This document shows, piece after piece, positions 25,809-51,071 of a DNA stretch of 64,000 nucleotides (position 1 is its first letter; every line of letters starts with the position of its first letter). The notes under the pieces were generated by a model that was not told the origin of the DNA, searched no databases, and saw nothing but the letters and a program-made list of their open reading frames with translations. A program made the translations under genes and the position numbers. The stretch is from Fulvivirga sp. M361. GTDB taxonomy: Bacteria > Bacteroidota > Bacteroidia > Cytophagales > Cyclobacteriaceae. Location of the stretch: contig NZ_VKDC01000006.1 in NCBI RefSeq assembly GCF_007097395.1, positions 1 to 64,000 on the forward strand, written 5' to 3'.

Positions 25809-26438
25809 TTAAGTCGATACACTATGGACAGGCGTTACATTGGTTTTTATATCCAATATTTCCATAGTTTTATTTTTGTAGATTTCCATTTTGTTTTCGT
25901 ATTCCTTTGGATCATTGACCATGCTCAGGTAGTAATACGCTCCATCTAAGAAAAGGAAAACCAAATCGGCCAATTGGTGAGTATCTTCTGCCACCAGATA
26001 TCCATCTTTTTTGCACCGCTGAAGAATGTCATTTAGCATGAGACGTAGTGAATCGTGCAGGGCTTTAAACTTTTCCTTAATGGCATCATCCCGGAATATA
26101 AACGTAAAGCAGTTGTAGTAGACATCATCATCCACCAGCTTGTTCCATTTCCTGGAAAACAAATTATCAATAATTTCATGCAATGCTTCCAGGGAAGTTT
26201 GGTCCTTGTTTGATCTGACCTTATACAAGTTTTTATACCGGTCTAAGATATATTCTATCAAACCCAGTATGAGCTCTTCTTTTGAACTGAAGTAATGAAT
26301 GATCAGGCTTGGGTTTATCCCCATATTACCTGCCAGTTTACCAATAGATACATTATGAAGCCCCTCCTTTTTAGCAGTTTTATAAAAAGCTTGAATGATT
26401 TCTTTACGACGATCCGATCTAAGGCTTTTCCTACCCAT
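25809..26438 (-). CDS. TetR-family transcriptional regulator
   Basis: A 209-residue protein starting MGRKSLRSDRRKEIIQAFYK. The N-terminal helix-turn-helix covers about residues 8-55 (VSIGKLAGNMGINPSLIIHY, then FSSKEELIL). The C-terminal ligand domain follows and resembles FadR/BetI-like acyl- or choline-sensing groups only in length. The open frame continues 63 bases upstream, but that extension encodes no known domain and runs into the operator. The gene is divergent from a SusC/SusD pair. A perfect palindrome lies 49 bases upstream of its start and the same core precedes susC, so it probably represses itself and its neighbour. Confidence 0.88.
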   Translation of the reverse strand: MGRKSLRSDRRKEIIQAFYKTAKKEGLHNVSIGKLAGNMGINPSLIIHYFSSKEELILGLIEYILDRYKNLYKVRSNKDQTSLEALHEIIDNLFSRKWNKLVDDDVYYNCFTFIFRDDAIKEKFKALHDSLRLMLNDILQRCKKDGYLVAEDTHQLADLVFLFLDGAYYYLSMVNDPKEYENKMEIYKNKTMEILDIKTNVTPVHSVST

Positions 26439-26486
26439 ATGCAGTGCTATAATTATTGAAACAACATTTCTTTTAAAAATTAGTTT

Positions 26487-26508
26487 GAATTGAACATTCA
26501 TTCAATTC
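26487..26508. promoter_or_regulatory. TetR operator 1, overlapping the regulator's promoter
   Basis: The arms gaattgaa and ttcaattc flank cattca. On the minus strand the core reads TTGAATGAATGTTCAA. Its TTG sits 20 bases before TAATTTTT (26475-26482 on the plus strand). That fits the Bacteroidota -33/-7 layout (TTTG, about 20 bp, TAnnTTTG) and places the operator on the -33 element of the TetR gene. This suggests autorepression. Confidence 0.75.
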
Positions 26509-26750
26509 ATGTCCCTGATTTTTTTGTCAGGTATTCAGAACAACTTTTACTTTACAGGTGAATAAGATAACATATTATTCATTGTGACATTTAAAGAAGG
26601 TCTACATTTTACCCTACAGGCTTAGTGGCATAATGAATGACACTGACACATTGAATAAATACATCAGCAAGGCTTCCTGTCACTGTTCTAACGATAATCC
26701 AAATTTGGATGAAAACCATCGGTTTTCAAACTTCCTGGTCTTAATAGTAT

Positions 26751-26788
26751 GTTAATTTAAATTGAATGAATGTTCAATTTAAATTAAC
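26751..26788. promoter_or_regulatory. TetR operator 2 upstream of susC
   Basis: This is a 38-bp palindrome with 16-bp perfect arms (gttaatttaaattgaa and its complement) around tgaatg. The core TTGAATGAATGTTCAA is identical to operator 1. Its TTG at 26762 is again 20 bp before a TA box (TAACTTCT at 26785), giving a possible promoter for the SusC gene at 26898 with a leader of about 100 bases. Confidence 0.78.
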
Positions 26789-26897
26789 TTCTGCTTAATC
26801 CCTTGGTAACGGCTGTTTCCTAATCTTGTGTGGGGTATTATTCTGCTGTTTTTAAAGACTTTACCCGGAAATTTTAATCACTAATCACACAACCACT

Positions 26898-29800
26898 ATG
26901 GGAGAATTATTTACTATTCGTAGCCTGATACATAAGCTTAAAAGGCATGTATCCGTGCTTGTTTGTTTTTACCTGGGATGGATGAATGTAGTATCAGCTC
27001 AAACTACTGCAATTTCAGGTAACGTGACATTGTCAGACGGTCAGTCCGTTCCGGGAGTTAGCGTAACCGTTGAAGGTACCACGTTTGGTACCATCACCGA
27101 TGCCAATGGAAACTATAAGCTCTCTTTGAATTCAACAGATGCCAGCCTGATTTTCTCCTTCATAGGGTACCAGACAGAAAGGGTCGAAGTGAAAAATCAA
27201 TCTGTTATTGACATTGTTCTGGTCGAAGATGTGAAGGAATTACAAGAAATAGTAGTGACGGCCCTGGGTGTAAAACGTGACAAAAAAGCGTTAGGGTATG
27301 CTACCCAGGAAGTAGACGGGCAATCACTGGTCAAGGCAAGGGAGCCTAATGTTATGAGCAGTTTAACAGGTAAAGTTGCAGGCCTTGTAGTTAATAATCA
27401 AACGGACCTCTTCAGCTCGCCTCAATTCCAACTGAGGGGTGAAACCCCTTTAATAGTGGTAGATGGCCTGCCTAATGATACTGATTTTTGGGATATAAGC
27501 CCTGACGATATCGAAAAAATAACCGTTTTGAAGGGTACTACTGCTTCAGCTCTCTATGGTTCAATAGGCAAGGACGGAGCCATCATGATCACCACAAAAA
27601 AGGGTAGCTCAAACGGCGGTGGCACCCAGGTGAAGTTTAACTCAAGTACCATGTTTCAGGAAGGGTTCATTGCCATTCCCGAAGTGCAGTCTACTTATGG
27701 AGCTGGCTTTGGCGGACAATATGCCTTCGTGGATGGTAAAGGAGGAGGTATCCAGGACGGGGCAGGCTGGATCTGGGGGCCTAAGTTCGAGGGGCAGTTA
27801 ATCCCACAGTTTGATAGTCCTGTGGATCCCGTCACCGGGGAAAGAACACCTACGCCATGGACAGCCAGGGGAAAAGACAACCTCAATAACTTTCTTAGGA
27901 CAGGTTTAATTTCCACTAACAATATCAGTGTTTCCGGGGGTAATGAATTAGGGGATTTTAGAGTGTCTGCGTCCCACCAATATCAAAGAGGTATGGTGCC
28001 CAATACTGATTTAAACAATTCCACCTTTACACTATCCGGAGGATACAATTTTTCCAAAAAACTCAGAGCTGATGCGTCATTTACCTATAATAAACAGTAT
28101 ACCGACAATTTTCCTGCACTGGGATACGGCCCTCAAAACTACATTTATAATGTATTGCTTTGGCTCGGTACCGATGTAGATGTCAATTCCCTGCGTGATT
28201 ATTGGATTGAAGGCCAGGAGGGACTCCAACAAAATCATTATAATTTAAGGTGGTACAATAATCCCTTTTTTCAGGCTTTTGAAAATGAGCGAGGCTATTA
28301 CAAAGATGTGAATTACGGACAATTTTCAATGAATTATGATTTTACGGATGACTTGAGCCTAATGGTCCGGTCAGGAGTGAACTGGTCTAACCTGAACCGT
28401 ACAGAAAACACGCCTTATAGTTTTGTGGGGACCAACCTGAATGGGGAGTTTAGCCTTTCCAATGAGACCAGGTTCAGGATTGTATCCGATTTCCTTCTTA
28501 ACTACAGCAAAGAGTTGAGCCAGGACTGGGCTGTGAGGGCTTCAATAGGCGGAAGTAACAACTTTACAACATTGCGTTCTTCTTCTGTAGAGACGGATGG
28601 CTTAAATGTACCGGACCTGTATAACATATCTAATTCCAGGGGACCTGTCAGAGGTTCAAATCAGGAAGTACAAACCAAGTTGAACAGTCTGTATTTTACG
28701 AGTGAGGTAAGTTTTTTGAATGCTGTTTTCCTCGGGTTCACCGGGAGGAACGATTGGTCTTCATTCCTGCCTCCTGATAACAACTCTTTCTTCTATCCGT
28801 CAGCCTCATTAGGCCTGGTAGTTTCCGACCTGGTAGCAGTACCTGATGCTATCCCTTACCTCAAATTCAGGACCTCCTGGGCCCAGGTGAGAAGTGACAG
28901 GCTTTCAGATACCGATTTTTTTGTCACCACACCTACCTATAATGAAGGTACCACCTTTGGAAGTACAGGCTCTGTTGTATTTCCCGGAGTGAAGGCGAAT
29001 CCAAGCCTGAAACCTGATTTAACCTCTACACTTGAAATAGGGACTGACATAAGATTTTTGAAGAACAGGATAGGGTTGGACGTTACCCATTATCGGTCTT
29101 TAGATGAAGACCTGCTTACTCAGCGAACAGTTGCCAATTCATCAGGGTTTAGCTCGATCATTGAAAATGCAGAAGAAAAATACTTACGTCGCGGATGGGA
29201 AGTTGTACTTAACGCTACTCCTGTAAAGTCTGATGCCTTTGAGTGGAATACAACGATTAACTGGAGCCGGCATCGGAGAATACTTGAAGAGCTGCCTTCC
29301 GGTGAAACCGAACTGAATGGGGTGAAAAAAGGAGAACGTACGGACATTTATTTGGGAGATGCTTTCCTTCGTTCACCCGGTGGCGCTATTATTTATGATG
29401 AAGACTCAGGCCTTCCTTTAACAGATCCTTTCCGACAGATCCTGGGCCACATTTCACCAGACTGGAACTATGGTATTACCAACAGTTTCAAATACAAAAA
29501 CTTCTCTCTGGATGTCTCTGTTGATGGCCGTCACGGTGGTGTATTCTGGTCACAAACCATCCGGAAAATGCTTTGGGGGGGTACCCATCCGGCTACAGTC
29601 AACGAATTCAGGGACATGGACATCCAGGGAGTTGCTTCTTACGTGGGGGATGGGGTTATTGTCACAGAAGGTGAGTTGATAACCGATGCCGATGGGAACG
29701 TCATATCTGACACCCGTTCTTTTGCGCCAAATACTACTGAAAGCTTCTATTTTGATTGGGTCAACAGGTTCTATCACGGCCCGACGGAAGAACCTAATAT

Positions 29801-30038
29801 CCAGGACCAATCCTTTATTAAGTTAAGAGAAGTGGTTTTTACCTATCAGCTTCCAAAACAATTGTTAAAACGTACTTTCATTGAAAATGCGTCCATATCA
29901 TTCGTAGGCAGAAACCTGCTTATGAAATCCAATGTCGATTTCCTCGACCCCGAATCCATCAATATCAATACCGGGGAAGAGCTGCTACAAACACCTTCAC
30001 CGAGAAGTTTCGGAGTTAATCTGAACATGACATTCTAA
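26898..30038 (+). CDS. SusC/RagA-type TonB-dependent outer-membrane transporter
   Basis: A 1046-residue protein. A basic N-terminus and hydrophobic segment end near VVSAQ35 as signal peptide. Residues of about 38-110 form the carboxypeptidase-regulatory-like beta domain (SGNVTLSDGQSVPGVSVTVE). About 115-240 are the plug (LQEIVVTALGVKRDKKALGY, then PLIVVDGLPNDTDFW). The rest is the barrel, ending in a C-terminal Phe (NLNMTF). With its SusD partner it imports oligomeric nutrients across the outer membrane using TonB energy. The partner starts 10 bp after its stop. It is preceded by TetR operator 2. The substrate is unknown; nearby enzymes are an alginate-lyase-like protein and a phosphodiesterase. 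Confidence 0.9.
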   Translation: MGELFTIRSLIHKLKRHVSVLVCFYLGWMNVVSAQTTAISGNVTLSDGQSVPGVSVTVEGTTFGTITDANGNYKLSLNSTDASLIFSFIGYQTERVEVKNQSVIDIVLVEDVKELQEIVVTALGVKRDKKALGYATQEVDGQSLVKAREPNVMSSLTGKVAGLVVNNQTDLFSSPQFQLRGETPLIVVDGLPNDTDFWDISPDDIEKITVLKGTTASALYGSIGKDGAIMITTKKGSSNGGGTQVKFNSSTMFQEGFIAIPEVQSTYGAGFGGQYAFVDGKGGGIQDGAGWIWGPKFEGQLIPQFDSPVDPVTGERTPTPWTARGKDNLNNFLRTGLISTNNISVSGGNELGDFRVSASHQYQRGMVPNTDLNNSTFTLSGGYNFSKKLRADASFTYNKQYTDNFPALGYGPQNYIYNVLLWLGTDVDVNSLRDYWIEGQEGLQQNHYNLRWYNNPFFQAFENERGYYKDVNYGQFSMNYDFTDDLSLMVRSGVNWSNLNRTENTPYSFVGTNLNGEFSLSNETRFRIVSDFLLNYSKELSQDWAVRASIGGSNNFTTLRSSSVETDGLNVPDLYNISNSRGPVRGSNQEVQTKLNSLYFTSEVSFLNAVFLGFTGRNDWSSFLPPDNNSFFYPSASLGLVVSDLVAVPDAIPYLKFRTSWAQVRSDRLSDTDFFVTTPTYNEGTTFGSTGSVVFPGVKANPSLKPDLTSTLEIGTDIRFLKNRIGLDVTHYRSLDEDLLTQRTVANSSGFSSIIENAEEKYLRRGWEVVLNATPVKSDAFEWNTTINWSRHRRILEELPSGETELNGVKKGERTDIYLGDAFLRSPGGAIIYDEDSGLPLTDPFRQILGHISPDWNYGITNSFKYKNFSLDVSVDGRHGGVFWSQTIRKMLWGGTHPATVNEFRDMDIQGVASYVGDGVIVTEGELITDADGNVISDTRSFAPNTTESFYFDWVNRFYHGPTEEPNIQDQSFIKLREVVFTYQLPKQLLKRTFIENASISFVGRNLLMKSNVDFLDPESININTGEELLQTPSPRSFGVNLNMTF

Positions 30039-30048
30039 AAAAACAGAC

Positions 30049-31527
30049 ATGAAACGAATAAAATCTATAAGGCTCATTACCCTGATCGCAGTGATCTGCC
30101 TGACCTCCTGTGAAAGTTTTGATGACCTTGCCATTAACCCTAATGAGCCTACACAGGTAAACCCTTCATTAATTCTTACCAACCTTGAAGTCCGTGCTTT
30201 TGAAAAAGTTGATCTAAATGCGGCATTAGCGGTAAGGTATATGACTTTTACGGATAACGTAACGGATTTTCAGTACTATGGATGGCAGAGGTTTAACTTT
30301 AATGAATACGATGACCTCCGGCAGGTCCAGAAAATGATCGAAGAAGCGGAAAGGATCGATGCGGTGAACTTCATTGCCCTTTCTAAGTTTTTCAGGGCCT
30401 ATTTCTATCATGAACTTACTCAACGCTATGGTGATATTCCGTATGGAGAGACATTGGCAGGCTTTGAAGATAATTTCGAAGCTGAGTATATTCCACAGGA
30501 AGAGGTCTATATTGGGATCCTTAAGGACCTGACCGAAGCAAACGAAGAGCTGGACGAATCGAATGGCGTAATTGACGGTGATATTGTATATGGTGGTAAT
30601 ATTACCCAATGGAAAAAGTTGATTAACTCATTCCATCTGAGAGTGCTGATGAATTTATCGCTCAAAGAAGGTAATACACGGTTTAACGTGCGAAGCGCCT
30701 TTGCCAATATCTTCAACAACCCTGGAGACTTCCCCATTTTTGAACGTAATGAGGACAATGCACAATTGGTTTTTCAGGATCTGGATGGGAGCAGGTATCC
30801 GGAGTTCCAGAACAGATCGCTGCCGACGGCCTACTATTTTTCATCTTCTTTTATAAATATGTTAAAAGAACGTGAAGACCCGCGCTTATTTAAGATCGCA
30901 CAACCGGATGTTAAGTCAAGGCAAGCAGCCAATCCGGGGTTTGAAACGGATTTTGATTCTTACTCCGGTTTAGATGCAGGAGCACCCTTGTCAGAGAATG
31001 TAGCTGCCGTATCGGATGAGGGATTAGGCTCATTGATGGCTGAGCGATATGCAAATGATCCGGTGAACGAACCAGGTATTGCACTCGGTTATGCAGAAGT
31101 ATCCTTTATACTGGCGGAAGCCGTATCCAGGGGGTGGATAAACGGTAATGCGGCTGAGTTTTATGAGGATGGAATTAGGACGTCCATGGAGTTTTATGAT
31201 ATTCCTGAGACAGACATCGAAGCTTATCTTCAGCATCCCCAGGTAATATACGATGCAGGTCAGGGGCTAGAGATGATCATTACACAAAAATACATTTCGT
31301 TTTTTATGAACTCTCAACTGGAGCCTTTCTACAACCAGAGAAGGACAGGTTTCCCAACTTTCAGAGTAGGGCCGGCTACACTCAATGGAGGAGAAATACC
31401 CAAAAGATGGATGTACCCTGAACAGGAGCTTGATTTTAACCAGGTAAATGTTAATACAGCCATTCAGCGTCAGTTTTCTGGCAATGATAACATCAACGGG
31501 GTTATGTGGCTATTACAGGAGGAATAA
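30049..31527 (+). CDS. SusD/RagB-type nutrient-binding lipoprotein (SusD-like_2)
   Basis: A 492-residue protein. The lipoprotein signal MKRIKSIRLITLIAVICLTS precedes Cys21. The body has the TPR-like SusD fold of the SusD-like_2 group: DLAINPNEPTQVNPSLILTN, then FRAYFYHELTQRYGDIPYGE, and near the end FYNQRRTGFPTF, PKRWMYPEQELDF and the closing NGVMWLLQ. It caps the SusC barrel on the outer face and binds the substrate. Only 10 bp separate it from susC. An intrinsic terminator follows at 31556. Confidence 0.9.
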   Translation: MKRIKSIRLITLIAVICLTSCESFDDLAINPNEPTQVNPSLILTNLEVRAFEKVDLNAALAVRYMTFTDNVTDFQYYGWQRFNFNEYDDLRQVQKMIEEAERIDAVNFIALSKFFRAYFYHELTQRYGDIPYGETLAGFEDNFEAEYIPQEEVYIGILKDLTEANEELDESNGVIDGDIVYGGNITQWKKLINSFHLRVLMNLSLKEGNTRFNVRSAFANIFNNPGDFPIFERNEDNAQLVFQDLDGSRYPEFQNRSLPTAYYFSSSFINMLKEREDPRLFKIAQPDVKSRQAANPGFETDFDSYSGLDAGAPLSENVAAVSDEGLGSLMAERYANDPVNEPGIALGYAEVSFILAEAVSRGWINGNAAEFYEDGIRTSMEFYDIPETDIEAYLQHPQVIYDAGQGLEMIITQKYISFFMNSQLEPFYNQRRTGFPTFRVGPATLNGGEIPKRWMYPEQELDFNQVNVNTAIQRQFSGNDNINGVMWLLQEE

Positions 31528-31555
31528 CGATCCGCTGCAATCACTATAAATGTCA

Positions 31556-31588
31556 GAGGAAAAGGTCTGTGATCTTTTCCTCTTTTTT
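31556..31588 (+). terminator. Intrinsic terminator of the first susCD operon
   Basis: Arms gaggaaaag (31556-31564) and cttttcctc (31574-31582) enclose a 9-nt loop, followed by six T residues. It starts 29 bases past the SusD stop and ends the two-gene transcript. Confidence 0.85.
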
Positions 31589-31775
31589 ATTTAGGCCTTC
31601 TCTGAAAATTAAAATGGTAGGAAAGCATCCGATTTGAATGAAATAAAATGTATTTGATGAAGTAGCAAGCATTCTCTGTCAAAGCGACCTGAGCCTCATT
31701 TACCAGTCACCAGCACCCAACATACACTCCGCTTTTCCGTTAAGAGATCAAAATGAATTTTCAATGGAGCCCTGT

Positions 31776-32042
31776 TTACACCTGCTTTTCAACCTTTCTG
31801 TATTTCCACATTCCATAACAAGCGATCAGTCCCCAGAACAGGTTGGCCGTAGTGGCCGGGTAAGAGTGGTCATAAATGGTGTTGATCACCAGAAACAGGC
31901 TGCCAAGGATATTAAAAACATGATAAGTCTTTGTCTTCACGGTCCATTTGCCCCGGTTTAGCTGCAGGTAAGACACGATAAAAAGTACAGTTCCTAACCA
32001 TCCCATGGACAGGATGAAATATTCCGAAGAAATATCTATCAT
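31776..32042 (-). CDS. CBU_0592-like small membrane protein
   Basis: An 88-residue protein with three membrane segments: SMGWLGTVLFIVSYLQLNRG, YHVFNILGSLFLVINTIYDH and ANLFWGLIACYGMWKYRK. The G-W-x-G-T-x-x-x-x-x-S-Y start and the F-N-x-x-G-S-x-x-L-x-x-N helix match the small CBU_0592-type inner-membrane family of unknown function. The gene stands alone and has no recognised partner here. Confidence 0.7.
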   Translation of the reverse strand: MIDISSEYFILSMGWLGTVLFIVSYLQLNRGKWTVKTKTYHVFNILGSLFLVINTIYDHSYPATTANLFWGLIACYGMWKYRKVEKQV

Positions 32043-32050
32043 AAAGCTGA

Positions 32051-32100
32051 TTTAACGTGAGTTTGGGAAAAAAATTATTAAAAAAACTACTTTAACGTGA
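32051..32100. repeat. Short direct repeat near the IS982 remnant
   Basis: The decamer tttaacgtga occurs at 32051-32060 and again at 32091-32100, 40 bp apart, just ahead of the broken transposase frame. It could be a remnant of an element end or of a duplicated target. It is too short to decide. Confidence 0.3.
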
Positions 32101-32214
32101 ATATCGAATAAGGAATTAGTATGATATTTTAAACAGTTGTCTATTGAAAAAGGCTGTTTTTGAGTGTGTTAAATTTTTGATTTTCAGTATGTTGATCCTA
32201 AAAAAACAACCATT

Positions 32215-32394
32215 GTGTTAAAAGATAAAGTTATAGAATTTTTCGTTGAGGCCGATGACTTCTGTCTGGAGTTTGAGGTAGAAATTAAAAAGCATTTAAT
32301 CGGGTAAAAGAAAGCTGGATGCCAACTTAGAAAATCTCAACCATTTGATGATGAGATCATTTACACCCTAATCCTTTTCCACTTTTTTAAATGT
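32215..32394 (+). pseudogene. IS982-type transposase N-terminal remnant
   Basis: From a GTG at 32215 the frame encodes LKDKVIEFFVEADDFCLEFE, then VEIKKHLIG and a TAA at 32305-32307. It continues with LRKSQPFDDEIIYTLILFHF. This matches the start of Bacteroidota IS982 transposases (K-V-I-E-I-F-x-x-x-D-D-F-C and later S-D-S-E-I-x-T-I-x-x-L-F-H). The catalytic domain is absent. It is a dead fragment between the membrane-protein gene and the convergent alginate-lyase gene. Confidence 0.6.
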
Positions 32395-32427
32395 GGACTA
32401 GTAATTTCCAATTGGAATAACAAATTC

Positions 32428-32461
32428 AAAAAAACAGTATCACGCATACCAGCGCGATACT
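32428..32461 (-). terminator. Intrinsic terminator of the alginate-lyase-like gene
   Basis: On the minus strand, agtatcgcgc and gcgtgatact pair over 10 bp with one G-U wobble and a 6-nt loop, and gttttttt follows (seven A residues at 32428-32434 on the plus strand). It is 28 bases past the stop at 32490. Confidence 0.8.
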
Positions 32462-32489
32462 ATTCAATTCATAAGGATCAAATCACATA

Positions 32490-34826
32490 CTATTTCATCA
32501 ACAGCATCCGATCCATAAAAACTTTATCTCCTATTTGTATCCTGGAGAAATAAATACCTGGACTTGTGCTACTTCCTCTCGAATCTGTAGCTTCCCAGGT
32601 GATCTCGTATTCACCTGCCAACTGATACTCACTTACCAGCTCTCGTACTTTCTGTCCCATGGCATTAATGATAAGCAGGGTTACCTGGCTATCTTCTAAA
32701 AGTGAGTATTTGATTTTCGCATAAGATATGAACGGGTTTGGATAAATTGAACTCGCAATCATAGGTACTTCCTGAGATCGGGGTTTATGCACCTCTGAAC
32801 TTGCTGTTCTTGCGCCAGCTCCTCCACGACTACTTTCAGCTGGTCCATTGCCTGTTGGGTTGGGTTGACTATCCAGTTGAATTACAAATTTGTCCAGACG
32901 CGTTCCGTTTTCTCTATAGCTAATCTCCAGGGTATGACTTCCACTATTTAAGCTGTTGACCATGGTATTGTTCGTCGAATACCAGATCCCTACGCCGTTT
33001 CTGGAATTCTCTCTCACCCAGGTTCCATTATCGATTCTCCAGAAGAAGGAATCGTCATTACCTCCGGCAGAATATATTCTGAACCAAAATGCATAATCCC
33101 CACCCGTGGAGATATCAAAATTGTAAGAAGCAAGGCACTCCGCAGTAGTGCAGACAGGCGTATTTTGGGTCGTGTTGAATTGCGGATCGATCTCTATGTA
33201 TTCACCTTCAGATGCGCTGTTATCAGTAGCAATGATCCAATTGGAACCGATAGTTCCGTGCTCTGCTTCAATAGAAAGTACTCCTCCGCTTTCCTGGAAT
33301 GCACCGCTGGTTCCGCCGCCCCCCTGAGTGGTGGCTGAAGATTCATTTGAGAAACCTGAATTCCCATCTGTATTATATGCCCGAACCCGATAAGTGTAAG
33401 TAGTAGAAGCCGTTAAACCTGTATTGCTGTAATTGGTCACATTAGCACCTACGGTAGCAATTTCTGTGAAGCTGCCACCACTCTGTCTTTCGATTCTGAA
33501 GCCATCTTCATTGTTTGCATTGTCTGTCCAGGTCAGGTTTATGGTAGTAGAAGAGGCCGCCATAGCAGATAGTCCGGATGGTGCAGATGGAATCGTAGGT
33601 GTAGGACCGGAACCACCGGACATATCTCCCTGGGTCAGTGTGATCCATGTATTACCTTGCGCTCCATTGAGGGGTCTGTTATTTTGGACCCATGTTCGCA
33701 ATTCAGGAATGACATCATATCGAGAGTTTGCCCATTCATAAGCATTCTTGCGGGTAGCCAGATAATCAGGGTTACTATTCCATGGAAAAGAAATTCCGCC
33801 TTCATCCCATCGCCACATCCATTCAACCACATCTTGCAATGTTGCGCCTTCTTCTGTTTGCAAGCTGGTATAATCAAACCCTGCATAGCGGGCGATATCA
33901 AATGCCTGCACCATAGTAGTCATAGCGTATTGGGTATAGGTGATCCCTTTTCTTCCGCCAGACCGCACAACCTCTCGCTCTAAATAAACGCCTTGGTTGT
34001 CTTTCGAAATTTTCCATTCTGAGCCTGGATTTCTTACACTCCCGTCAGTGCGTGAATAGAAATAGCTCTTCAGTTGCACTAGTGCTTCTTGTAAGTGATT
34101 CGGGTCCTCTAACACAATCGCCGCGGCAATCAAACCTAAGAGTCCGGCATCTTTCCAATTGTTATCCTTTACTCTACTTACCTCTCTCACGGCACCTGAA
34201 CCCGTCAGTACTTCATTTCCCCACCAGGCCTTAAACGCTTCCCGGTCTGTACTGGTCCAGCCAGAATAATTGTAAATCAAATCTGCGGCATACAACATCC
34301 CTGAGAAATAAGAACCCAGTTGCAGCCCTCGGTCATCCCCGGAGAAAGTGGTCGCCGTATTCGTCCAGTCCATCAAAATCTCCTCTGCTTTCTCAGCATA
34401 GGTAGTGTTGTCTGTGAGCGCATAGGTCAACGCCAGCGTATAGGCAGCATAGCTATGTTCCCATAATACATCTCTGGCAGCTTGCAGTCCTGCGCCATCC
34501 TGATGACCACCGGGAATCCAAAGGTTGGATGGGGCAATGGAGGTAAACTGAAGCTGTAGGGTCGCCTCAGCAAGCAGATCATTATAAGCCGATATTTGCG
34601 GTTCTGCATTATTGGCAATACGGTCTTTCAGCGTATTGAGGTCTGCTTGATTCAATACCGTCATTGGGTGACTAAACTGGACACCTGATACATCTATGTT
34701 GTATTCAGTCCTCCAGGGTTCCGGCGCTCCTGGAAAGCTCTGACCAAGAACATTTATGGTCAAGAGTAAACAAGCATACAATGGCATGCCCAACAAACTT
34801 TTTTTGTAAAGAGATTTCATTTTCAT
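32490..34826 (-). CDS. Secreted alginate-lyase-like enzyme with FnIII, carbohydrate-binding and T9SS domains
   Basis: From the ATG at 34826 the protein has 778 residues; upstream frame extension would bury the signal peptide MKMKSLYKKSLLGMPLYACL. Residues of about 40-390 are an alpha-toroid of the alginate_lyase (PL5-like, PF05426) type with the NNWKDAGLLGLIAAA segment that usually carries the catalytic Asn/His region. About 410-500 form a fibronectin III domain (PSAPSGLSAMAASSTTINLT). About 505-655 form a beta-sandwich like a carbohydrate-binding module (LSIEAEHGTIGSNWI). About 690-778 are the type IX sorting tail (IYPNPFISYAKIKYSLLEDS). It is probably anchored at the cell surface. The exact glycan, alginate or other uronate polymer, cannot be fixed. 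Confidence 0.82.
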   Translation of the reverse strand: MKMKSLYKKSLLGMPLYACLLLTINVLGQSFPGAPEPWRTEYNIDVSGVQFSHPMTVLNQADLNTLKDRIANNAEPQISAYNDLLAEATLQLQFTSIAPSNLWIPGGHQDGAGLQAARDVLWEHSYAAYTLALTYALTDNTTYAEKAEEILMDWTNTATTFSGDDRGLQLGSYFSGMLYAADLIYNYSGWTSTDREAFKAWWGNEVLTGSGAVREVSRVKDNNWKDAGLLGLIAAAIVLEDPNHLQEALVQLKSYFYSRTDGSVRNPGSEWKISKDNQGVYLEREVVRSGGRKGITYTQYAMTTMVQAFDIARYAGFDYTSLQTEEGATLQDVVEWMWRWDEGGISFPWNSNPDYLATRKNAYEWANSRYDVIPELRTWVQNNRPLNGAQGNTWITLTQGDMSGGSGPTPTIPSAPSGLSAMAASSTTINLTWTDNANNEDGFRIERQSGGSFTEIATVGANVTNYSNTGLTASTTYTYRVRAYNTDGNSGFSNESSATTQGGGGTSGAFQESGGVLSIEAEHGTIGSNWIIATDNSASEGEYIEIDPQFNTTQNTPVCTTAECLASYNFDISTGGDYAFWFRIYSAGGNDDSFFWRIDNGTWVRENSRNGVGIWYSTNNTMVNSLNSGSHTLEISYRENGTRLDKFVIQLDSQPNPTGNGPAESSRGGAGARTASSEVHKPRSQEVPMIASSIYPNPFISYAKIKYSLLEDSQVTLLIINAMGQKVRELVSEYQLAGEYEITWEATDSRGSSTSPGIYFSRIQIGDKVFMDRMLLMK

Positions 34827-35595
34827 AAGGTTTATAGATAGTAGTAAGCGATTTATTTGGTTAAGCCTTATCCATACATCTTGCTCTGTCAACCCTCCCA
34901 CATCCATTATGACAGAAACTTCGGTTGTTATATAGTTAGGTACTTGCAGACTAGTACTTGTTAACCATTTTTAATCCCTCCAAGAGTGTACTTGCCATGG
35001 ATATCTGAGCAGTTATCATAAGTGTATCCTTTCACATTCACTGTCGCAAAAGGAAGTAACACTATAGTGAAAGCATCAGATATTGTTTCATACATCGTTT
35101 TCGTTGAAAAATTACAGGCTATATAACTCAACATATCGTAATTAATGTAAAGAGGTATTTGATTGTCAAGCTCAGAAAATGGCTTGGGTAAAAGTGAGAA
35201 AAGCTTTACAAATCAAATTCAGATTTGAAGCGAATACACTTGATAACACTTCAACCTTTTACACCTGACAAAAATGCTATTTCATAACAGGTTTGATCTT
35301 TTGTATAGTATCAAAATCGTCTTGTATTGTGCTATATATTGAAAAGATTCAATAGACACCTCCTAAAATCAGTAACTATAGATTGATCAGGCAATTTCAA
35401 CCCTCATTTTTAAGAATATTGCAATTTGTACTCTTAGAGGCTTGATTTCTTACTCATCAATCAACTTCGCGAGTAGATAACCCATTTAATATTTGAGCAT
35501 GTTTAACATGTTGTTTGTCCCTTACAGCAATTCATCTGATTCATGCCATAAGAAACCAGGGTGAATTAAGGTGCTTTGGTACATTGCTAATGCGA
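34827..35595. other. 769-bp AT-rich gap without a recognisable gene
   Basis: No reading frame of protein character, tRNA, terminator or long repeat was found on either strand. The region must include the promoter of the alginate-lyase-like gene and the end of the phosphodiesterase transcript. It could hold a small RNA, but nothing in the sequence demonstrates one. Confidence 0.5.
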
Positions 35596-36819
35596 TCAAT
35601 TTAAAAATACCCATGTATTGGTTTGATTAAAAGGAGCTTTCAACAGTATTTTATGTGTGCCGGAAGTTAAATCGAACCCTGTTTTGAACGTTCCCGCTTT
35701 TACATCAGCTTTCCCGATCAACAGGTATTCGTCTTTTTTACCTTCTTTAAAGTTGTTTGTAGTGGTGTGATAGATCTCTACTTCACCTGAACCATCAACG
35801 ACATCCCATGTCACTTCCAACGTTTCACTTTCTATGGAGGCCTTCATGTTCATCACAGATATTTTACCTAGAAAAGGGGTCCCATCAAACTCAGCGCTGA
35901 TCTCATCAGAAGGGGTTATATTCAGGTGGCGCAACAAAGTTGGAGTGATGTCTACAATAGCAGGTGTAGCGTTAAACCTGGCATTTAGATCATGTTGATT
36001 AGTAATGATCCATGTTGTGCGCTCTCTTTCGGATTGACCCCCATGGTTTTTACCCTTCTTGCTGTCTCTGCCATGATCTGTGGTGACTACCAGCATCCAG
36101 TCTTCATTATGCTCCTGTTTTCTGTACTGCACGGCATCCCATATTCTCTTTACCTGGATATCCGCCTTTTGTATGGCGTCGTTTAACTGTGGGCTGTCTC
36201 CATACATGTGTCCCATGTCGTCAGTATATTCAAGATACACCCAGGATAAGTCCGGAGCGTCCGTTTTAATATATTCAGCGGCATGTTGAGATACGTGTTC
36301 ATCTATATTGAAAATGAATTTTCTGCCAGTCAGGTGGGGAAAAGAAGAGGTATCATGTTCAAAACCGTCGAATGAGTGGTCCAGTTGAAGACCACCTGCC
36401 GTCGGTTTTCCTTCTCCAATGAGTTTGGTACGATTGTCCTCCCAGGTAGAAAAAATCGCTGTTTTCAATGTTGGGTCCGCCCTTTCAACTATCCTGAAAA
36501 TATTCCAATAATGGTAGTTGGGTTTTTTCACCTTATTGCCCCATACGTTATGCTTATAGGCCCAGACCCCTGTGATCATGTTCATGTAGCCAGGTGCTGA
36601 TATCGTGGGGGTCTCAGTGTAAGCACCGGTTTGTCCACCGACATATGATCGGGTGTAACCTCCTTGCCGAGCGATATGGTCAAGGGTAGGAGTGGCTACG
36701 TCTTCCAGTACATCAGCAGGGATACCATCCAGCAGAATGAAAACGGCTTTCTTCGTTTGAGCGCTACCATGAGCGACGAAGACCAGGAATATAGCTGTCA
36801 CTGTAAGTTTTTTTATCAT
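35596..36819 (-). CDS. Secreted type I phosphodiesterase/nucleotide pyrophosphatase-like enzyme
   Basis: A 407-residue protein starting MIKKLTVTAIFLVFVAHGSA, a signal peptide; codons upstream to 36837 add no hydrophobic core. The alkaline-phosphatase-superfamily core includes AVFILLDGIPADVL (metal Asp), the nucleophile region ETPTISAPGYMNMITG (Thr or Ser), YLEYTDDMGHMYG (Asp and His metal ligands) and LVVTTDHGRD with a nearby HGG. About the last 90 residues form a small beta domain. It probably hydrolyses phosphodiester or pyrophosphate bonds in the periplasm or outside; the substrate is unknown. An operator-like palindrome identical to the TetR core except one base lies 85 bp upstream. Confidence 0.82.
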   Translation of the reverse strand: MIKKLTVTAIFLVFVAHGSAQTKKAVFILLDGIPADVLEDVATPTLDHIARQGGYTRSYVGGQTGAYTETPTISAPGYMNMITGVWAYKHNVWGNKVKKPNYHYWNIFRIVERADPTLKTAIFSTWEDNRTKLIGEGKPTAGGLQLDHSFDGFEHDTSSFPHLTGRKFIFNIDEHVSQHAAEYIKTDAPDLSWVYLEYTDDMGHMYGDSPQLNDAIQKADIQVKRIWDAVQYRKQEHNEDWMLVVTTDHGRDSKKGKNHGGQSERERTTWIITNQHDLNARFNATPAIVDITPTLLRHLNITPSDEISAEFDGTPFLGKISVMNMKASIESETLEVTWDVVDGSGEVEIYHTTTNNFKEGKKDEYLLIGKADVKAGTFKTGFDLTSGTHKILLKAPFNQTNTWVFLN

Positions 36820-37377
36820 AGAAATATACATTAGCAAGATCTTGTATCAGAGTTTCAAAGTTATCGTTGTAATGTTATCCAATGGTTAATTGAATTTTAT
36901 AGTTTGAATAAATGTTCAATTTAAGTCATTGTTCGGAACTTTTTTCCGTTCAATACACAGTGGCAAGTGATGAGATTCAAATAGCTAATCACCAGTCATA
37001 TACTGTGCCTGCCTTATATTTTTGCATTAGGATCATATGGTAGTAAATATCACCTGCATATTCTTCCTGATTATTGAGTAAATACTATATAGTTTTTTAT
37101 CACTTTTCATTGTATTTTTTGAAGAAGATGTGACTGATATCACTCTTTTTATTTCCAATTTTGATGTTTAAACATATGTATGTTTTTGATATTTTTTACT
37201 CATTTTTCCTTTAAAAATGAATGAGTGGTATATTTAATGTTTTTGCAATCGTTTGCGGTATGGTTTTCGTATATTTAATAGTACATGGTACTTTATATCA
37301 CTTTATTAATGACTATTATTATAAACTGTATATCGGCTAATGCTGGCTGATAATTACTCAAATCTAAACCAACCTAT
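36820..37377. other. 558-bp divergent intergenic region before the second susC
   Basis: This AT-rich stretch separates the divergent phosphodiesterase and the second SusC gene. It holds operator 3 (36904-36919). No gene or hairpin terminator was found. A TTTG at 37252 and TATATTTA at 37270 resemble promoter parts but are only 14 bp apart, shorter than the usual spacing, so I do not call a promoter. Confidence 0.45.
36904..36919. promoter_or_regulatory. TetR operator 3, between the phosphodiesterase and second susC
   Basis: TTGAATAAATGTTCAA matches the core of operators 1 and 2 in 15 of 16 positions, and its TTGAA and TTCAA arms are perfect. It is 84 bases from the phosphodiesterase start and 458 bases from the second SusC start, so the phosphodiesterase is the more likely target. 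Binding is inferred from identity of the motif. Confidence 0.65.
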
Positions 37378-40300
37378 ATGAAGAAGACTTTACTACTAAC
37401 GTTTATCATGTTGGCGGTATTTGGCATGGCCGAGGCTCAGAATACAGTGACCGGTAAGGTGACTGACGGAGCTGACGGAGCAGCAATACCCGGTGTGAAT
37501 GTGGTCGAGAAAGGTACTACTAACGGTACCGTCACCGATTTCAACGGTAATTACACCTTGTCTATAGCGGATGGGGCCACCATTTTATTCTCATTTGTGG
37601 GATATGTTACCCAGGAAATACCGGCGGCCGGAAAATCCGTGATAGACATAAGCCTGTCAACAGATGTGCAACAACTGTCAGAGGTTGTGGTTATTGGCTA
37701 TGGGACACAGGAGGCAGATGATGTTACAGGCGCTATTTCATCTATTGATGCTGAGAATTTTAATCCAGGAGTGATCAGTTCTCCGGAGCAATTGTTTGAA
37801 GGTAAACTGGCTGGAGTACAGGTGTCTGCCAATAGTGGAGAACCCGGGGCAGGAATTAATGTTAACATCAGAGGTTTTAATTCCATACGGTCTACCTCGC
37901 AGCCTTTGTTTGTGGTGGATGGAGTTCCTATCACTTCCGACAATCCGAATGCCGGCGGCGTAGCCATCTCAAGTGGCTCTTCATCCGCTCCTCAAAACCC
38001 ATTGAGTTTCCTGAACCCTGACGATATAGCATCTATTGACATTTTGAAAGATGCTTCTGCGGCTGCAATTTTTGGTTCCAGAGCGGCCAACGGAGTTGTG
38101 TTGATCACTACGAAACAAGGGCAAAGTGGTAGTGGTACACTTGAGTACTCTTCCTATGGTTCTGTTGCTTTCATCAGAAATAAGCTGGACCTGCTGGACG
38201 CGGGTTCTTACGAAAACGCCATCAGACAACTCGCCGATGAAGCGGAAACACCTGATCAGCGGTCTTCATTGCTGGAGAACCTTGCAGGTGGTGATGTCGA
38301 TTATCAGGATGAAATTTTCAGAGTGGGGGTTACACAAAGTCATAACCTGTCGTATGGTGGAGGTACGGAAGATTCCCGCTACCGTATCTCATTAGGATAT
38401 CTGGACCAGGAAGGTGTGGTGGAAAACAGTCGATTGGAAAGGTATACGGCCAGGATAAATTCCAATCATAAGGCCTTAAACGATCGTGTAAGTATTGATC
38501 TGCAATTGACAGCTACAAGAACTGAAACGCTACATCCTCCTATTGAAGAAGGAGCAAATGCTACCGGGGACTTGATCATTAACGCCTTACGGGCCAACCC
38601 CACGTCATCACCTTTTGAAGATGACGGTTCCGTGGTGATCTCTCCCAGCAATCCGCTTGCGTTACTTGAATTCATTGATGACAATTCTGAGATGAACCGT
38701 GTGTTAGGAAATGTATCTGTAGGCGTTGAGATCGTGGAAGGGCTATCTTACAAATTTAATATGGGCGGTGACGCTGCCAATTCAGAAAGGAGGACGGATT
38801 TTTCCGCTCTTTTACCTACAGAGTCTAACAGTGGGTCAGGGACTATAAACGTACTGGAAACAAGTAGCCTGGTTTTCGATAATACGTTGAACTATGTAAA
38901 GACATTTGGTGAAGATCATCGCATAGATTTCCTGGTAGGCCACTCGTATCAACAGTTCAGAAGGAGAGGGTCTTTTATTTCCCGTGGAGATCCTATTTTA
39001 CCTACGATAGACATTACGCCAAACATCGCCTTTGCTTTAGAAAGTAATAATGAGCCTACTTCATTTTTAAGGTTTCGGGAGATACAGTCTTATTTCGGAC
39101 GTGTCAACTACGACTTTAGAGATAAATACTTGTTTACGGCTACAGTCCGTGTGGATGAGTCTTCCGTGTTTGGTCCCAGGAACAGCAGTGGTACATTCCC
39201 CTCTTTTTCCGCAGGATGGCGGTTAAGTGAAGAGACCTTTATACAGGACCTTGACGTATTTAGTAATTTGAAGCTCCGGGTAGGTTATGGGATACTTGGT
39301 AGTCAGGATATTCCGGAACGTCAGCAAGTATTTGCTTTTTCTACCGATGCCACTACCCGCTTTATCAATGGAAATGACCGATTACCAGGCCTTGCATTAA
39401 TCAGAACACCTAATCCTGATCTGAAATGGGAAGAACAACGACAGTTTAATATCGGGATAGACTTTGGGTTATTCGACGGACGTTTAACAGGTTCTTTTGA
39501 TTATTTCAATAAATCACAAGATGATCTTCTGGTGTTTATTCCAACAATACAACCCGCACCAACCAGTGGTCAATTTCAAAATATAGATGGAGATATAAGA
39601 AATACAGGCTTTGAGATTACACTGAGCAGTGTAAATATTAACCAGGGGGATTTTAGCTGGAATACGGATTTCAACCTTACTTCTGTTCAGCCAGAGGTCA
39701 GAGGTCTGGTCTTTACCCGTATCAATGGTGCAGAAGCTTCAGGACAGGGTCTTTCCGGAACCATTGTCCAGTATTTTACCAATGGCCAGGCACCCTTTGT
39801 GTTTTTAGGACGGGAGTTTACAGGCGTCGACGCAAGTGGTAACCCGCAATTTGTTCAGAATGAAAATGGTGCAGATGATCAATTCAGGGTGCTGGGAGAC
39901 CCAATTCCAAATACGATCCTTGGTTTGACCAACTCCTTTAGATATAAAAAATTCGACCTGACCTTTCTTTTATCAGCACAACTTGGTTTTGAAGTGTATA
40001 ACAACACAGCCAATTCATTATTTACAGCATCTTCTTTCAGGTCAGGTAGTAATGTTACAGAAGATGTGGCCAATGAAGCACTGAGTTCCGGTGAAACGGG
40101 AGGTAATCCGTTTTCAAGCAGGTTCATTGAAGATGGAGATTTTCTCAGGTTAACGAACGCTACCATCGGATATACTTTCGATGTTTCCAAGGTCAGCTGG
40201 TTGAACAGTATGCGTGTTTATCTGGCCGGGCAGAACCTGTTTTTGATCACGAACTATACAGGGTATGATCCTGAGGTAAACTCGCAACCCAATGCAACCA

Positions 40301-40398
40301 AAGTAAACAGTGTTGAGTTGCCATCAGCCCGTGGCATTGATAACTCAAGTTATCCGCGTCCGTCGACGGTGCAATTAGGATTAAATGTCAGGTTTTAA
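37378..40398 (+). CDS. SusC/RagA-type TonB-dependent transporter (second pair)
   Basis: A 1006-residue protein with signal peptide MKKTLLLTFIMLAVFGMAEA. The beta domain covers about residues 22-100 (VTGKVTDGADGAAIPGVNVV), then the typical box LSEVVVIGYGTQEADDVTGA. Plug residues include PLFVVDGVPITSDNPNAGG and LNPDDIASIDILKDASAAAI. The barrel ends in Phe (QLGLNVRF). It is a closer match to the standard SusC consensus than the first pair. It is the first gene of a long plus-strand carbohydrate locus, and the SusD partner starts 8 bp after the stop. The location suggests import of a small glucoside. Confidence 0.92.
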   Translation: MKKTLLLTFIMLAVFGMAEAQNTVTGKVTDGADGAAIPGVNVVEKGTTNGTVTDFNGNYTLSIADGATILFSFVGYVTQEIPAAGKSVIDISLSTDVQQLSEVVVIGYGTQEADDVTGAISSIDAENFNPGVISSPEQLFEGKLAGVQVSANSGEPGAGINVNIRGFNSIRSTSQPLFVVDGVPITSDNPNAGGVAISSGSSSAPQNPLSFLNPDDIASIDILKDASAAAIFGSRAANGVVLITTKQGQSGSGTLEYSSYGSVAFIRNKLDLLDAGSYENAIRQLADEAETPDQRSSLLENLAGGDVDYQDEIFRVGVTQSHNLSYGGGTEDSRYRISLGYLDQEGVVENSRLERYTARINSNHKALNDRVSIDLQLTATRTETLHPPIEEGANATGDLIINALRANPTSSPFEDDGSVVISPSNPLALLEFIDDNSEMNRVLGNVSVGVEIVEGLSYKFNMGGDAANSERRTDFSALLPTESNSGSGTINVLETSSLVFDNTLNYVKTFGEDHRIDFLVGHSYQQFRRRGSFISRGDPILPTIDITPNIAFALESNNEPTSFLRFREIQSYFGRVNYDFRDKYLFTATVRVDESSVFGPRNSSGTFPSFSAGWRLSEETFIQDLDVFSNLKLRVGYGILGSQDIPERQQVFAFSTDATTRFINGNDRLPGLALIRTPNPDLKWEEQRQFNIGIDFGLFDGRLTGSFDYFNKSQDDLLVFIPTIQPAPTSGQFQNIDGDIRNTGFEITLSSVNINQGDFSWNTDFNLTSVQPEVRGLVFTRINGAEASGQGLSGTIVQYFTNGQAPFVFLGREFTGVDASGNPQFVQNENGADDQFRVLGDPIPNTILGLTNSFRYKKFDLTFLLSAQLGFEVYNNTANSLFTASSFRSGSNVTEDVANEALSSGETGGNPFSSRFIEDGDFLRLTNATIGYTFDVSKVSWLNSMRVYLAGQNLFLITNYTGYDPEVNSQPNATKVNSVELPSARGIDNSSYPRPSTVQLGLNVRF

Positions 40399-40406
40399 AC
40401 AATAGA

Positions 40407-42080
40407 ATGATGAAAAAGATACAACAGATAAAAGGCCTGGTTCTATTGATATTGGCTGCTTTTTTCGTGAATTCATGTAATATAGAAGAAGAGGTGTTAG
40501 ATGAGATCACTGCTGATCAGGTGGAGACGATCAGCGCTTCCGACGCCATACAACTGATAGCGCCCGCTTATGCTGTCATGCGTGAAATGCTTCAACGGGA
40601 TGGAGTTTGGGGTGTTAATCAACATAGTTCTGATGAAACACTCGGGCCAACAAGAGGCTCTGACTGGGATGATAATGGCATTTGGAGGCAACTGCATACC
40701 CATACGTGGGACGCAAATCATACCTTTATTCGTTTGGCCTGGGAAGACTTAAACCAGGGCGTATCACGGTCTAATGGAGCACTGAATACTTTTATAAACC
40801 AAATTCCCGGTATAGATGCCAACCTCATTGCGGAGGCCCGTGTATTGAGGTCCCTGTTCATGTTTTACATCATGGATATGTTTGGGCAGGTACCTTTCAG
40901 GGAGATCGATGAAATCGATTTTTCCGTCTCCGGAAGGGTATTGACCCGTGCAGAAGCGTTTGAATTTATTCGTACCGAGTTAGAAGAGTCTATTGCGGAC
41001 CTGCTGAATGAAACGGAAGTGCCTTACGGACGTTTGACCAAAAATGCCGCCCGGACATTATTGGTGGTACTGAACCTGAATCATGAGGTATATTTAGATC
41101 AAAAGGTGGATGCACGTTATACAGATGCTGTTAACTTCGCAACGGATGTTATCGGAAGTGCCGCCTATACATTGGCCCCTGCAGAGGATTACTTTGGAAT
41201 GTTCGCCAACGATAATACGGAGACCAGGGCACAGGGAGAAGGCATCATCGTTGCCACATTTGTGAATGACCTTGATCTTGGCGAAGATAATGTTTCAATG
41301 ATCACACAGACATTGCATTACAATCAACGCTTTGGTGGTGGTGATGGCAACAATGATGGTCATTTAGACTTTTCCGCCTGGAACGGGTTTACGACGATAG
41401 CAGATTTCTACAATAGATGGGACCAGAATGATCCACGGTTTAGAGCAGAGTCTGAAATTACTGCTGCCAATGCATCTACGGTAAGCGAAAACAATCCTTA
41501 TGTATTTAATGGAATAAACAGGGGATTCCTGCAAGGCCAGCAGTTTGATGGGCAGGGCCGCTACGTGTTACACCGGGTAAGTAGTAGTGACAACGGTCAG
41601 GTAGCAGTAGCAGACCCTGCAGATGCCAATACTCCATTGCTCAACTTTACGGTAGATCTGAGTTTGACAGGTAATACAGAATCAAATGGCGTAAGGGTAC
41701 TGAAGTATGCCCCGGATCCAAATGCTCCTGTCATTACAAGAACAGATAATGATTTTATACTATGGAGATATTCCGATGTTTATTTGATGCGTGCAGAGGC
41801 TCAATTTCGTTTGGATGGTGGTGGTCAGGCGGACCTGGACGCTGTAAGGACTGCCAGAAATATGACGAGTATTCCTATCAGTGAAGATGCTTTACTTGAT
41901 GAAAGGGGTTTTGAACTGTATTGGGAAGGACATCGCCGCCGTGATCTCATCCGGTTCGGGAGGTTTACGGATGCGTATACATTGAAAGATGCAAGTCCTG
42001 CATTCAGAACATTATTTCCGGTTCCCCAGTCAGCGATAGATTCTGATCCGCTTTTGGACCCGACATTAGGAAATCAATAA
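40407..42080 (+). CDS. SusD/RagB-type nutrient-binding lipoprotein (second pair)
   Basis: A 557-residue protein starting MMKKIQQIKGLVLLILAAFF, with lipoprotein Cys24 in FVNSC. SusD core helices include AEARVLRSLFMFYIMDMFGQ followed by VPFREID. The C-terminal RagB signature is DERGFELYWEGHRRRDLIRF, then GRFTDAY and FPVPQSAIDSDPLL. It works with the SusC barrel just upstream at the outer face of the outer membrane. An intrinsic terminator at 42101 ends this two-gene transcript, so the genes behind it may need their own promoter or read-through. Confidence 0.92.
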   Translation: MMKKIQQIKGLVLLILAAFFVNSCNIEEEVLDEITADQVETISASDAIQLIAPAYAVMREMLQRDGVWGVNQHSSDETLGPTRGSDWDDNGIWRQLHTHTWDANHTFIRLAWEDLNQGVSRSNGALNTFINQIPGIDANLIAEARVLRSLFMFYIMDMFGQVPFREIDEIDFSVSGRVLTRAEAFEFIRTELEESIADLLNETEVPYGRLTKNAARTLLVVLNLNHEVYLDQKVDARYTDAVNFATDVIGSAAYTLAPAEDYFGMFANDNTETRAQGEGIIVATFVNDLDLGEDNVSMITQTLHYNQRFGGGDGNNDGHLDFSAWNGFTTIADFYNRWDQNDPRFRAESEITAANASTVSENNPYVFNGINRGFLQGQQFDGQGRYVLHRVSSSDNGQVAVADPADANTPLLNFTVDLSLTGNTESNGVRVLKYAPDPNAPVITRTDNDFILWRYSDVYLMRAEAQFRLDGGGQADLDAVRTARNMTSIPISEDALLDERGFELYWEGHRRRDLIRFGRFTDAYTLKDASPAFRTLFPVPQSAIDSDPLLDPTLGNQ

Positions 42081-42100
42081 GTAAAATATACCTGGAAGAT

Positions 42101-42131
42101 GGCCGTGATATCAACCGTCACGGCCTTTTTC
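42101..42131 (+). terminator. Intrinsic terminator of the second susCD operon
   Basis: Arms ggccgtga (42101-42108) and tcacggcc (42118-42125) enclose a 9-nt loop, followed by five T residues, a C and two more T residues. It lies 21 bases after the SusD stop and inside the 5' extension of the next open frame, which argues for the later start used for that gene. Confidence 0.8.
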
Positions 42132-42194
42132 TTACTTAAGCTATCTATTCCCCAAGCATTTGAGGGGCAGATGGTATTGTCGACATTATCACAC

Positions 42195-45548: not shown

Positions 45549-45614
45549 AACAATACAGTAAATGATTTTTAATCATCTGATTTTTAAATGTTTCTAATGT
45601 TTTGTGTTAAAGAA

Positions 45615-50989: not shown

Positions 50990-51071
50990 ATATTCATGTT
51001 TGTGCTACATTTAACGGCGATTCAATGATTATAAAGAGTCGTGCACGACATAAGAACTATCAACATTTACC

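Follow-up and report, generated by a model that had tools for sequence, protein, structure and literature searches.

The window examined here is a stretch of 64,000 nucleotides at the start of contig NZ_VKDC01000006.1 of Fulvivirga sp. M361, which encodes a TetR-family regulator, a divergent SusC/SusD uptake pair and a phosphoesterase-like hydrolase, together with three copies of one palindrome. These very probably represent a real and conserved TetR regulon, probably with three promoters in this genome. The features of the locus are as follows, with operators and promoter boxes being predictions.

25809..26438, minus strand: tetR, TetR-family repressor (TetR_N and TetR_C_37, PF18665) by domain search, start at the ATG of MGRKS
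26475..26482, minus strand: candidate -7 box TAATTTTT of tetR, 20 bp past the operator 1 TTG, by consensus match only
26490..26505, minus strand: operator 1, predicted from sequence and matrix, upstream of tetR (within a 22-bp palindrome, 26487-26508)
26751..26788, plus strand: operator 2, predicted from sequence and matrix, a 38-bp palindrome upstream of susC with its core at 26762-26777
26785..26792, plus strand: candidate -7 box TAACTTCT of susC, 20 bp past the operator 2 TTG, by consensus only (4 of 6 letters)
26898..30038, plus strand: SusC/RagA-type TonB-dependent transporter (TIGR04056, 550.5 bits, cut-off 368.25)
30049..31527, plus strand: SusD-like protein (PF12771, SusD-like_2, 271.9 bits, cut-off 27)
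31776..32042, minus strand: membrane-like open reading frame (ORF) of 88 amino acids, of a family present at 35 of 63 compared loci
35596..36819, minus strand: alkaline-phosphatase-superfamily hydrolase (PF01663, NPP-like), with a signal-peptide-like start by eye
36904..36919, no strand assigned: operator 3, predicted from sequence and matrix, before the hydrolase

The regulator has an N-terminal TetR_N helix-turn-helix (PF00440, 30 bits, cut-off 24) and a C-terminal domain matching PF18665 with 136.6 bits (cut-off 27), and it is the one PF18665 protein found in this genome, which is 97.55% complete. The start was set at MGRKS as in the related loci L052 and L053; the alternative frame of 230 amino acids would begin at an upstream ATG inside the operator. 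The structure model of the protein shows the all-helical fold of the family and has a mean predicted local distance difference test score (pLDDT) of 78.3, with best PDB matches to 3crj (template modeling score 0.74-0.77 by query length), and the fold search with this model returned generic TetR matches from which no ligand is readable. Assignment as BetI, FadR or RutR was rejected, the scores lying far below the NCBIfam equivalog cut-offs (54.1 of 201.3, 30.9 of 200 and 26.8 of 368 bits, respectively).

The palindrome core TTGAATGAATGTTCAA is exact at 26490-26505 on the minus strand upstream of tetR and at 26762-26777 on the plus strand upstream of susC, and a third copy with one mismatch is located at 36904-36919. 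Around the tetR-side core the symmetry extends over 22 bp (26487-26508) as GAATTGAA-N6-TTCAATTC, and the susC-side core sits in a 38-bp palindrome (26751-26788) whose 16-bp arms are 100% complementary about a 6-nucleotide spacer. An earlier note on this DNA had described the three copies in these terms, and the two exact cores, the one-mismatch copy and the 16-bp arms are all as it gave them. A matrix built from 28 unique sites of relatives, with the window excluded but the exact core also among the relatives' training sites, scores the window sites at 20.6, 20.6 and 19.0 bits, and a search of the 64-kb window at ≥17 bits returns exactly three sites, which are the palindrome copies. The genome-wide search that the earlier note had proposed finds the exact core in only two places in the whole 8,129,137-bp (8.13 Mb) genome, the tetR and susC sites, against 0.01 expected by chance from the window base composition; the core is not scattered. 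With up to one mismatch there are 5 places against 0.47 expected on the same basis, and with up to two mismatches 23 matches against 7 for a reversed control pattern, showing that background exists. Among the 34 off-locus matches examined, which are those with a usable locus, 28 lie inside open frames of at least 450 nucleotides, which the three window sites do not. Within the window taken alone, four matches at up to three mismatches are not unusual, being reached by 10 of 100 shuffles; the significance of the palindrome rests on its exactness, position and conservation.

Conservation was examined in 295 genomes of the family, that of the window included, of which 65 have a match to the TetR at E ≤ 1e-40. 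The 63 loci compared comprise the window, 60 of the 65 relatives' TetR matches (G153, G238, G255, G232 and G166 being left out) and the loci L053 and L054; from an earlier set of 80 loci only L052 (on the same contig as L133), L053 and L054 were used. In the relatives tetR is usually divergent from susC. Exact TTGAA-N6-TTCAA arms are found within about 300 bp upstream of tetR at 45 of the 63 loci and arms with one mismatch at 9 more, compared with 5 exact and 60 one-mismatch occurrences in 1706 control windows from the same loci. A site of ≥17 bits lies 0-600 bp upstream of tetR at 55 of the 63 loci, window included, with the site of L133, at 459, being closer to susC than to tetR, and in 50 of the 54 loci measured the nearest site is 15 to 240 bp before susC (median 99 bp). 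Relatives with the tetR-susC arrangement intact have also conserved the palindromes, the outcome of the comparison of orthologous loci that the earlier note had called for. The rest of the relatives' sequence (944,304 bp) contains 10 sites of ≥17 bits, five before susC and five before a detached hydrolase. The second susC sites occur in L175, L177, L178, L181 and L189, where a gene of a metallophosphoesterase cluster separates tetR and susC, and L168 and L169 have 16.3-bit sites before susC in the same arrangement with such an intervening gene. Clusters of calcineurin-like proteins and of Exo_endo_phos-type proteins, named by Pfam on two examples each, are present at 12 and 6 loci, respectively.

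The palindrome is also tied to the presence of this TetR. Hydrolase loci from genomes without the TetR contain no site of ≥17 bits in 40 loci (630,012 bp), these being taken from 39 of the 44 TetR-less genomes with the hydrolase (G271, G291, G155, G059 and G119 were left out). A loose pattern of the site is found in 50 of 65 genomes with the TetR compared with 58 of 230 TetR-less ones, the 230 including three genomes whose TetR matches are intermediate. In a phylum-wide sample PF18665 matches occur in 6 of 395 genomes, five over the cut-off with the window's own included, and all four PF18665 loci in other Bacteroidota families have a site beside tetR (19.2, 20.7, 20.5 and 20.6 bits). A divergent susC is present in three of these four, that of L219 being broken into two frames, and in L220 only an ORF of 97 amino acids resembling the start of SusC follows. 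The sites, their conservation and their tie to the TetR are all features of the sequences themselves.

Other matches to the palindrome were set apart. The off-locus matches C2, C72, C94, C127 and C13:3990 were rejected as members, lying inside open reading frames. Two one-mismatch cores elsewhere in the same genome (G000) were not counted as members. The core at C80:28883 (L193:7884-7899) is intergenic, scores 16.6 bits and stands 394 bp before a gene that by eye resembles glycoside hydrolase family 3 (GH3), apparently in another SusCD-type locus. The core at C13:5574 (L192:5574-5589) scores 15.1 bits and has a short TetR-like ORF on one side and a short-chain-dehydrogenase-like gene on the other, both identified by eye. 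It is possible that both are weak or foreign sites, and the latter may be the operator of another TetR with a similar preference. In G006, a genome with no match for this TetR, there are 20 strand-wise matches of TTGAACGATCGTTCAA-like palindromes on several contigs, which are a repeat or another regulator's operator.

The hydrolase has its best matches to PF01663 and to NPP/ENPP structures (7mw8, 2gsn, ENPP5-7) with a profile E of about 1e-8, and weaker matches to phosphoglycerate mutase and PafA; it is the sole match of its kind in the genome. The alkaline-phosphatase-superfamily core is common to the hydrolase and the NPP/ENPP phosphodiesterases, although similarity is low. Seven residues (Asp-31, Ser-74, Asp-200, His-204, Asp-248, His-249 and His-259) are invariant in 20 homologous sequences and are likely catalytic or metal residues, candidates for the two-metal site and Ser/Thr nucleophile of an NPP phosphodiesterase, although the last histidine lies closer than would be expected for NPP. 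An AlphaFold model of the hydrolase, obtained with a two-sequence alignment, had a mean pLDDT of 43.1 and was set aside.

In the window the hydrolase is encoded past susCD and on the other strand, an alginate-lyase-like gene separating the two, and in most relatives it lies behind susCD; it is present at 54 of the 63 loci, at 47 of these on the susC strand. The third palindrome precedes this gene, which appears to have moved. From operator 3 the distance is about 85 bp to the hydrolase ATG at 36819 and 73 bp to an alternative ATG at 36831, and this copy most likely serves the hydrolase. Where relatives have the hydrolase off the susC strand a site precedes it in 5 of 7, namely in L149, L152, L155, L156 and L158, in which the hydrolase is a unit by itself; operator 3 of the window adds one more such case. 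As judged from these loci, a target gene forming its own unit has a site in most cases seen. The regulon probably extends beyond tetR and susCD, since the gene following the third site encodes a phosphoesterase whose counterpart in relatives comes after susCD. The earlier note had limited it to the regulator's own gene and the SusC/SusD pair; control of these two is supported by the operator conservation, with neither random scatter of the core nor loss of the palindromes in relatives being found, and the proposed extent is amended to take in the hydrolase.

It is very probable that a TetR dimer represses its own gene, susCD and the hydrolase through the sequence TTGAAyGAnyrTTCAA and is released by an inducer. 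In this mechanism the dimer of the TetR_C_37-containing protein would bind at its own promoter, at that of the divergent susCD and at that of the hydrolase, and without inducer would cover or crowd the promoters and keep all three low. A compound made from the imported substrate would bind the C-terminal domain and release the regulator, and the uptake pair and hydrolase would then be made together. The presence of the hydrolase, and of further phosphoesterases at some relatives' loci, suggests that the substrate carries a phosphoester. Binding, repression, inducer and phosphoester substrate are what we infer from sequence.

The promoter layout bears on how repression might be achieved. Toward tetR the TTG at 26505-26503 is followed by TAATTTTT at 26482-26475 and toward susC the TTG at 26762-26764 is followed by TAACTTCT at 26785-26792, both with the spacing TTG-N20-TA, so the earlier note was correct in placing the TTG exactly 20 bp from a TA box at the first two sites. 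In the 61 unique segments compared, a TA 20 bp past the TTG occurs toward tetR in 33, with 1 to 14 at other spacings from 19 to 44, and toward susC in 11, where the spacing is not special. The proposal that polymerase is blocked at the -33 element is therefore only partly supported. Occlusion of this element would be a fair reading at the window's tetR and susC, where the layout is present, but it is not shown as a rule given the low count toward susC and the variable -7 box, and it misfits the third site.

Several observations weigh against the proposed regulon. At the third site no promoter-like pair of TTG-20-TA layout is present in either direction, the -7 box consensus is not conserved in relatives, and at least five of the six letters of TAnnTTTG are found at 20 bp in 1 of 61 segments toward tetR and in none of 61 toward susC. 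Eight of the 63 loci have no site of ≥17 bits beside tetR. Of these, L134, L137 and L139, which belong to a single clade, have a degenerate site and no hydrolase in the stretch covered; L136, L151 and L191 have weak sites (12.9, 13.4 and 16.3 bits), L151 having no SusCD or hydrolase nearby; L143 has only 86 bp of upstream sequence; and L054 is a distant partial TetR match with no site in 8 kb upstream. The five relatives with a detached hydrolase are one clade, as are the five with a second susC site, and each set accordingly represents few events. The hydrolase of L218, from another family, is apart from susCD and has no site before it, and in L157 the gene comes after tetR with no separate site. 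Outside the regulon the hydrolase occurs as well, with 38 of the 40 hydrolase loci of TetR-less genomes having no matching susCD pair and two keeping a pair of the window's type beside it. The three intermediate genomes in the TetR-less count are a further such point.

It is unlikely that the targets are tetR and susCD only, with the third copy a chance match. About 0.5 copies with one mismatch are expected genome-wide, proper promoter spacing is lacking at this site, and neither L218 nor L157 has a separate site for its detached hydrolase; against this, the third copy scores 19.0 bits as one of three sites in 64 kb, precedes a gene sharing the susC strand at 47 of 54 loci, mostly behind susCD, and has counterparts before the hydrolase in the five relatives of one clade. 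The same absence of TTG-20-TA at the third site, and its frequency of 11 of 61 toward susC against 33 of 61 toward tetR where it fits simple occlusion, would suit a TetR that represses only its own gene and acts as an activator or dual regulator at susC and the hydrolase. This arrangement is improbable, since TetR-family regulators with a divergent target are mostly repressors and the distances of the nearest site to susC given above fall in the usual promoter zone.

The third site also lies between the divergent hydrolase and a second susC starting at 37378, and it might serve that susC/susD pair (37378-42080), either by itself or in addition to the hydrolase. When the SusC next to tetR is compared with the two SusC proteins of the window, 46 of 60 relatives have one that resembles the 37378 protein more than the 26898 protein, although the resemblance is distant and the identity low. 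The site is however 459 bp from this susC compared with about 85 bp from the hydrolase start, and the 37378 unit runs into GH65, FG-GAP and trehalase genes that are unmatched at the relatives' loci, making this assignment improbable. A purely structural role of the palindrome in DNA or RNA, for instance as a terminator or cruciform, could be suggested by the perfect long inverted repeat of the 38-bp copy but is scarcely credible, as the other copies are short-armed and the conserved part is a 16-bp sequence, not a long hairpin, that is tied to the presence of one TetR.

Control of SusCD pairs is usually considered to be by ECF (extracytoplasmic function) sigma/anti-sigma factors or hybrid sensors. 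In the regulon proposed here, a one-component TetR repressor would govern a SusCD locus linked to phosphoesters. In function the closest parallel is PUSI of Flavobacterium johnsoniae, for which PMC8115612 describes a SusCD-like pair with periplasmic phosphodiesterases, one of pf00149, a proposed role in phosphodiester scavenging and an ECF sigma factor, with induction by phosphate depletion. Both locus types place SusCD beside phosphoesterases, and they differ in that the ECF sigma factor is replaced here by a TetR with its own putative operator and the hydrolase is NPP-like. BtAraR of Bacteroides thetaiotaomicron is, according to PMC4666351, a one-component repressor of SusCD genes whose inducer is a product of the substrate, as is proposed for the TetR, but it belongs to the NrtR family, responds to arabinose and has a regulon across several operons. 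TetR_C_37 is the C-terminal domain of Staphylococcus aureus IcaR, in which single changes raise ica transcription according to PMC10100805. IcaR has the same two domains and is a negative regulator of the divergent-type ica operon; it differs in being from a Firmicute and controlling a polysaccharide synthesis operon, and the comparison made here is at the level of domains. BetI, Bacillus FadR and RutR, to which the window TetR gives weak model matches, likewise have an N-terminal helix-turn-helix and palindromic operators, but their targets differ. No natural TetR with a SusCD and phosphoesterase locus is among the open-licence literature matches listed, and in the text seen of PMC12611786 and PMC11300592 TetR is present only as a synthetic switch.

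A TetR regulon with a defined putative operator offers a handle leading from regulator to inducer and from there to the nutrient of an uptake system whose sequence does not allow its substrate to be guessed. Bacteroidota genetics might likewise use the operator as a small switch, and the third palindrome illustrates that relatives can assign a gene to a stray copy of a motif.

The TetR tree places the window with L132 and L133 (100/99), and along it the type of SusD changes at least three times on well-supported branches and eight times over all labels by parsimony, these counts being unsure as the tree has some long branches. The two SusD types form separate clusters at the clustering thresholds used, and the operator is nearly constant across the changes. 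In L132 (5818-8503), the closest TetR relative at 73%, susC is split into two frames and tetR, operator and hydrolase are kept, with no susD found before the hydrolase. These patterns tentatively suggest, at somewhat less than even likelihood, a module spread across several Bacteroidota families in which one TetR with TetR_C_37 and its operator stay near-constant, the uptake pair has several times been swapped for the other of two distant SusCD types, and phosphoesterase genes have moved. The nutrient, a phosphodiester that may be a lipid head group or choline-type ester, would then be defined more by the regulator than by the transporter.

Of the remaining genes, the ORF of 88 amino acids was dropped as a regulon member in the window, there being no operator before it here, and its membership in this genome is doubtful; by Pfam on examples one homologue of the family matches YgjV, below the cut-off. 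The five relatives with a detached hydrolase have their site between this ORF and the hydrolase, and in L218 (6904-8585) the two are arranged as in L149 without an operator between. The alginate-lyase-like protein at 32490-34907 carries an fn3 domain, has no operator and has one partial match at the relatives' loci (L156). Near it a short open fragment at 32218-32308 on the plus strand resembles, in our estimation, the start of a transposase and could be a remnant of the rearrangement by which the hydrolase was relocated. The region 37378-54034, which includes the second SusC/SusD pair and, after it, genes for two FG-GAP/ASPIC proteins, a GH65 protein, a PAP2 protein and a trehalase, looks like a separate disaccharide (trehalose-type) locus.

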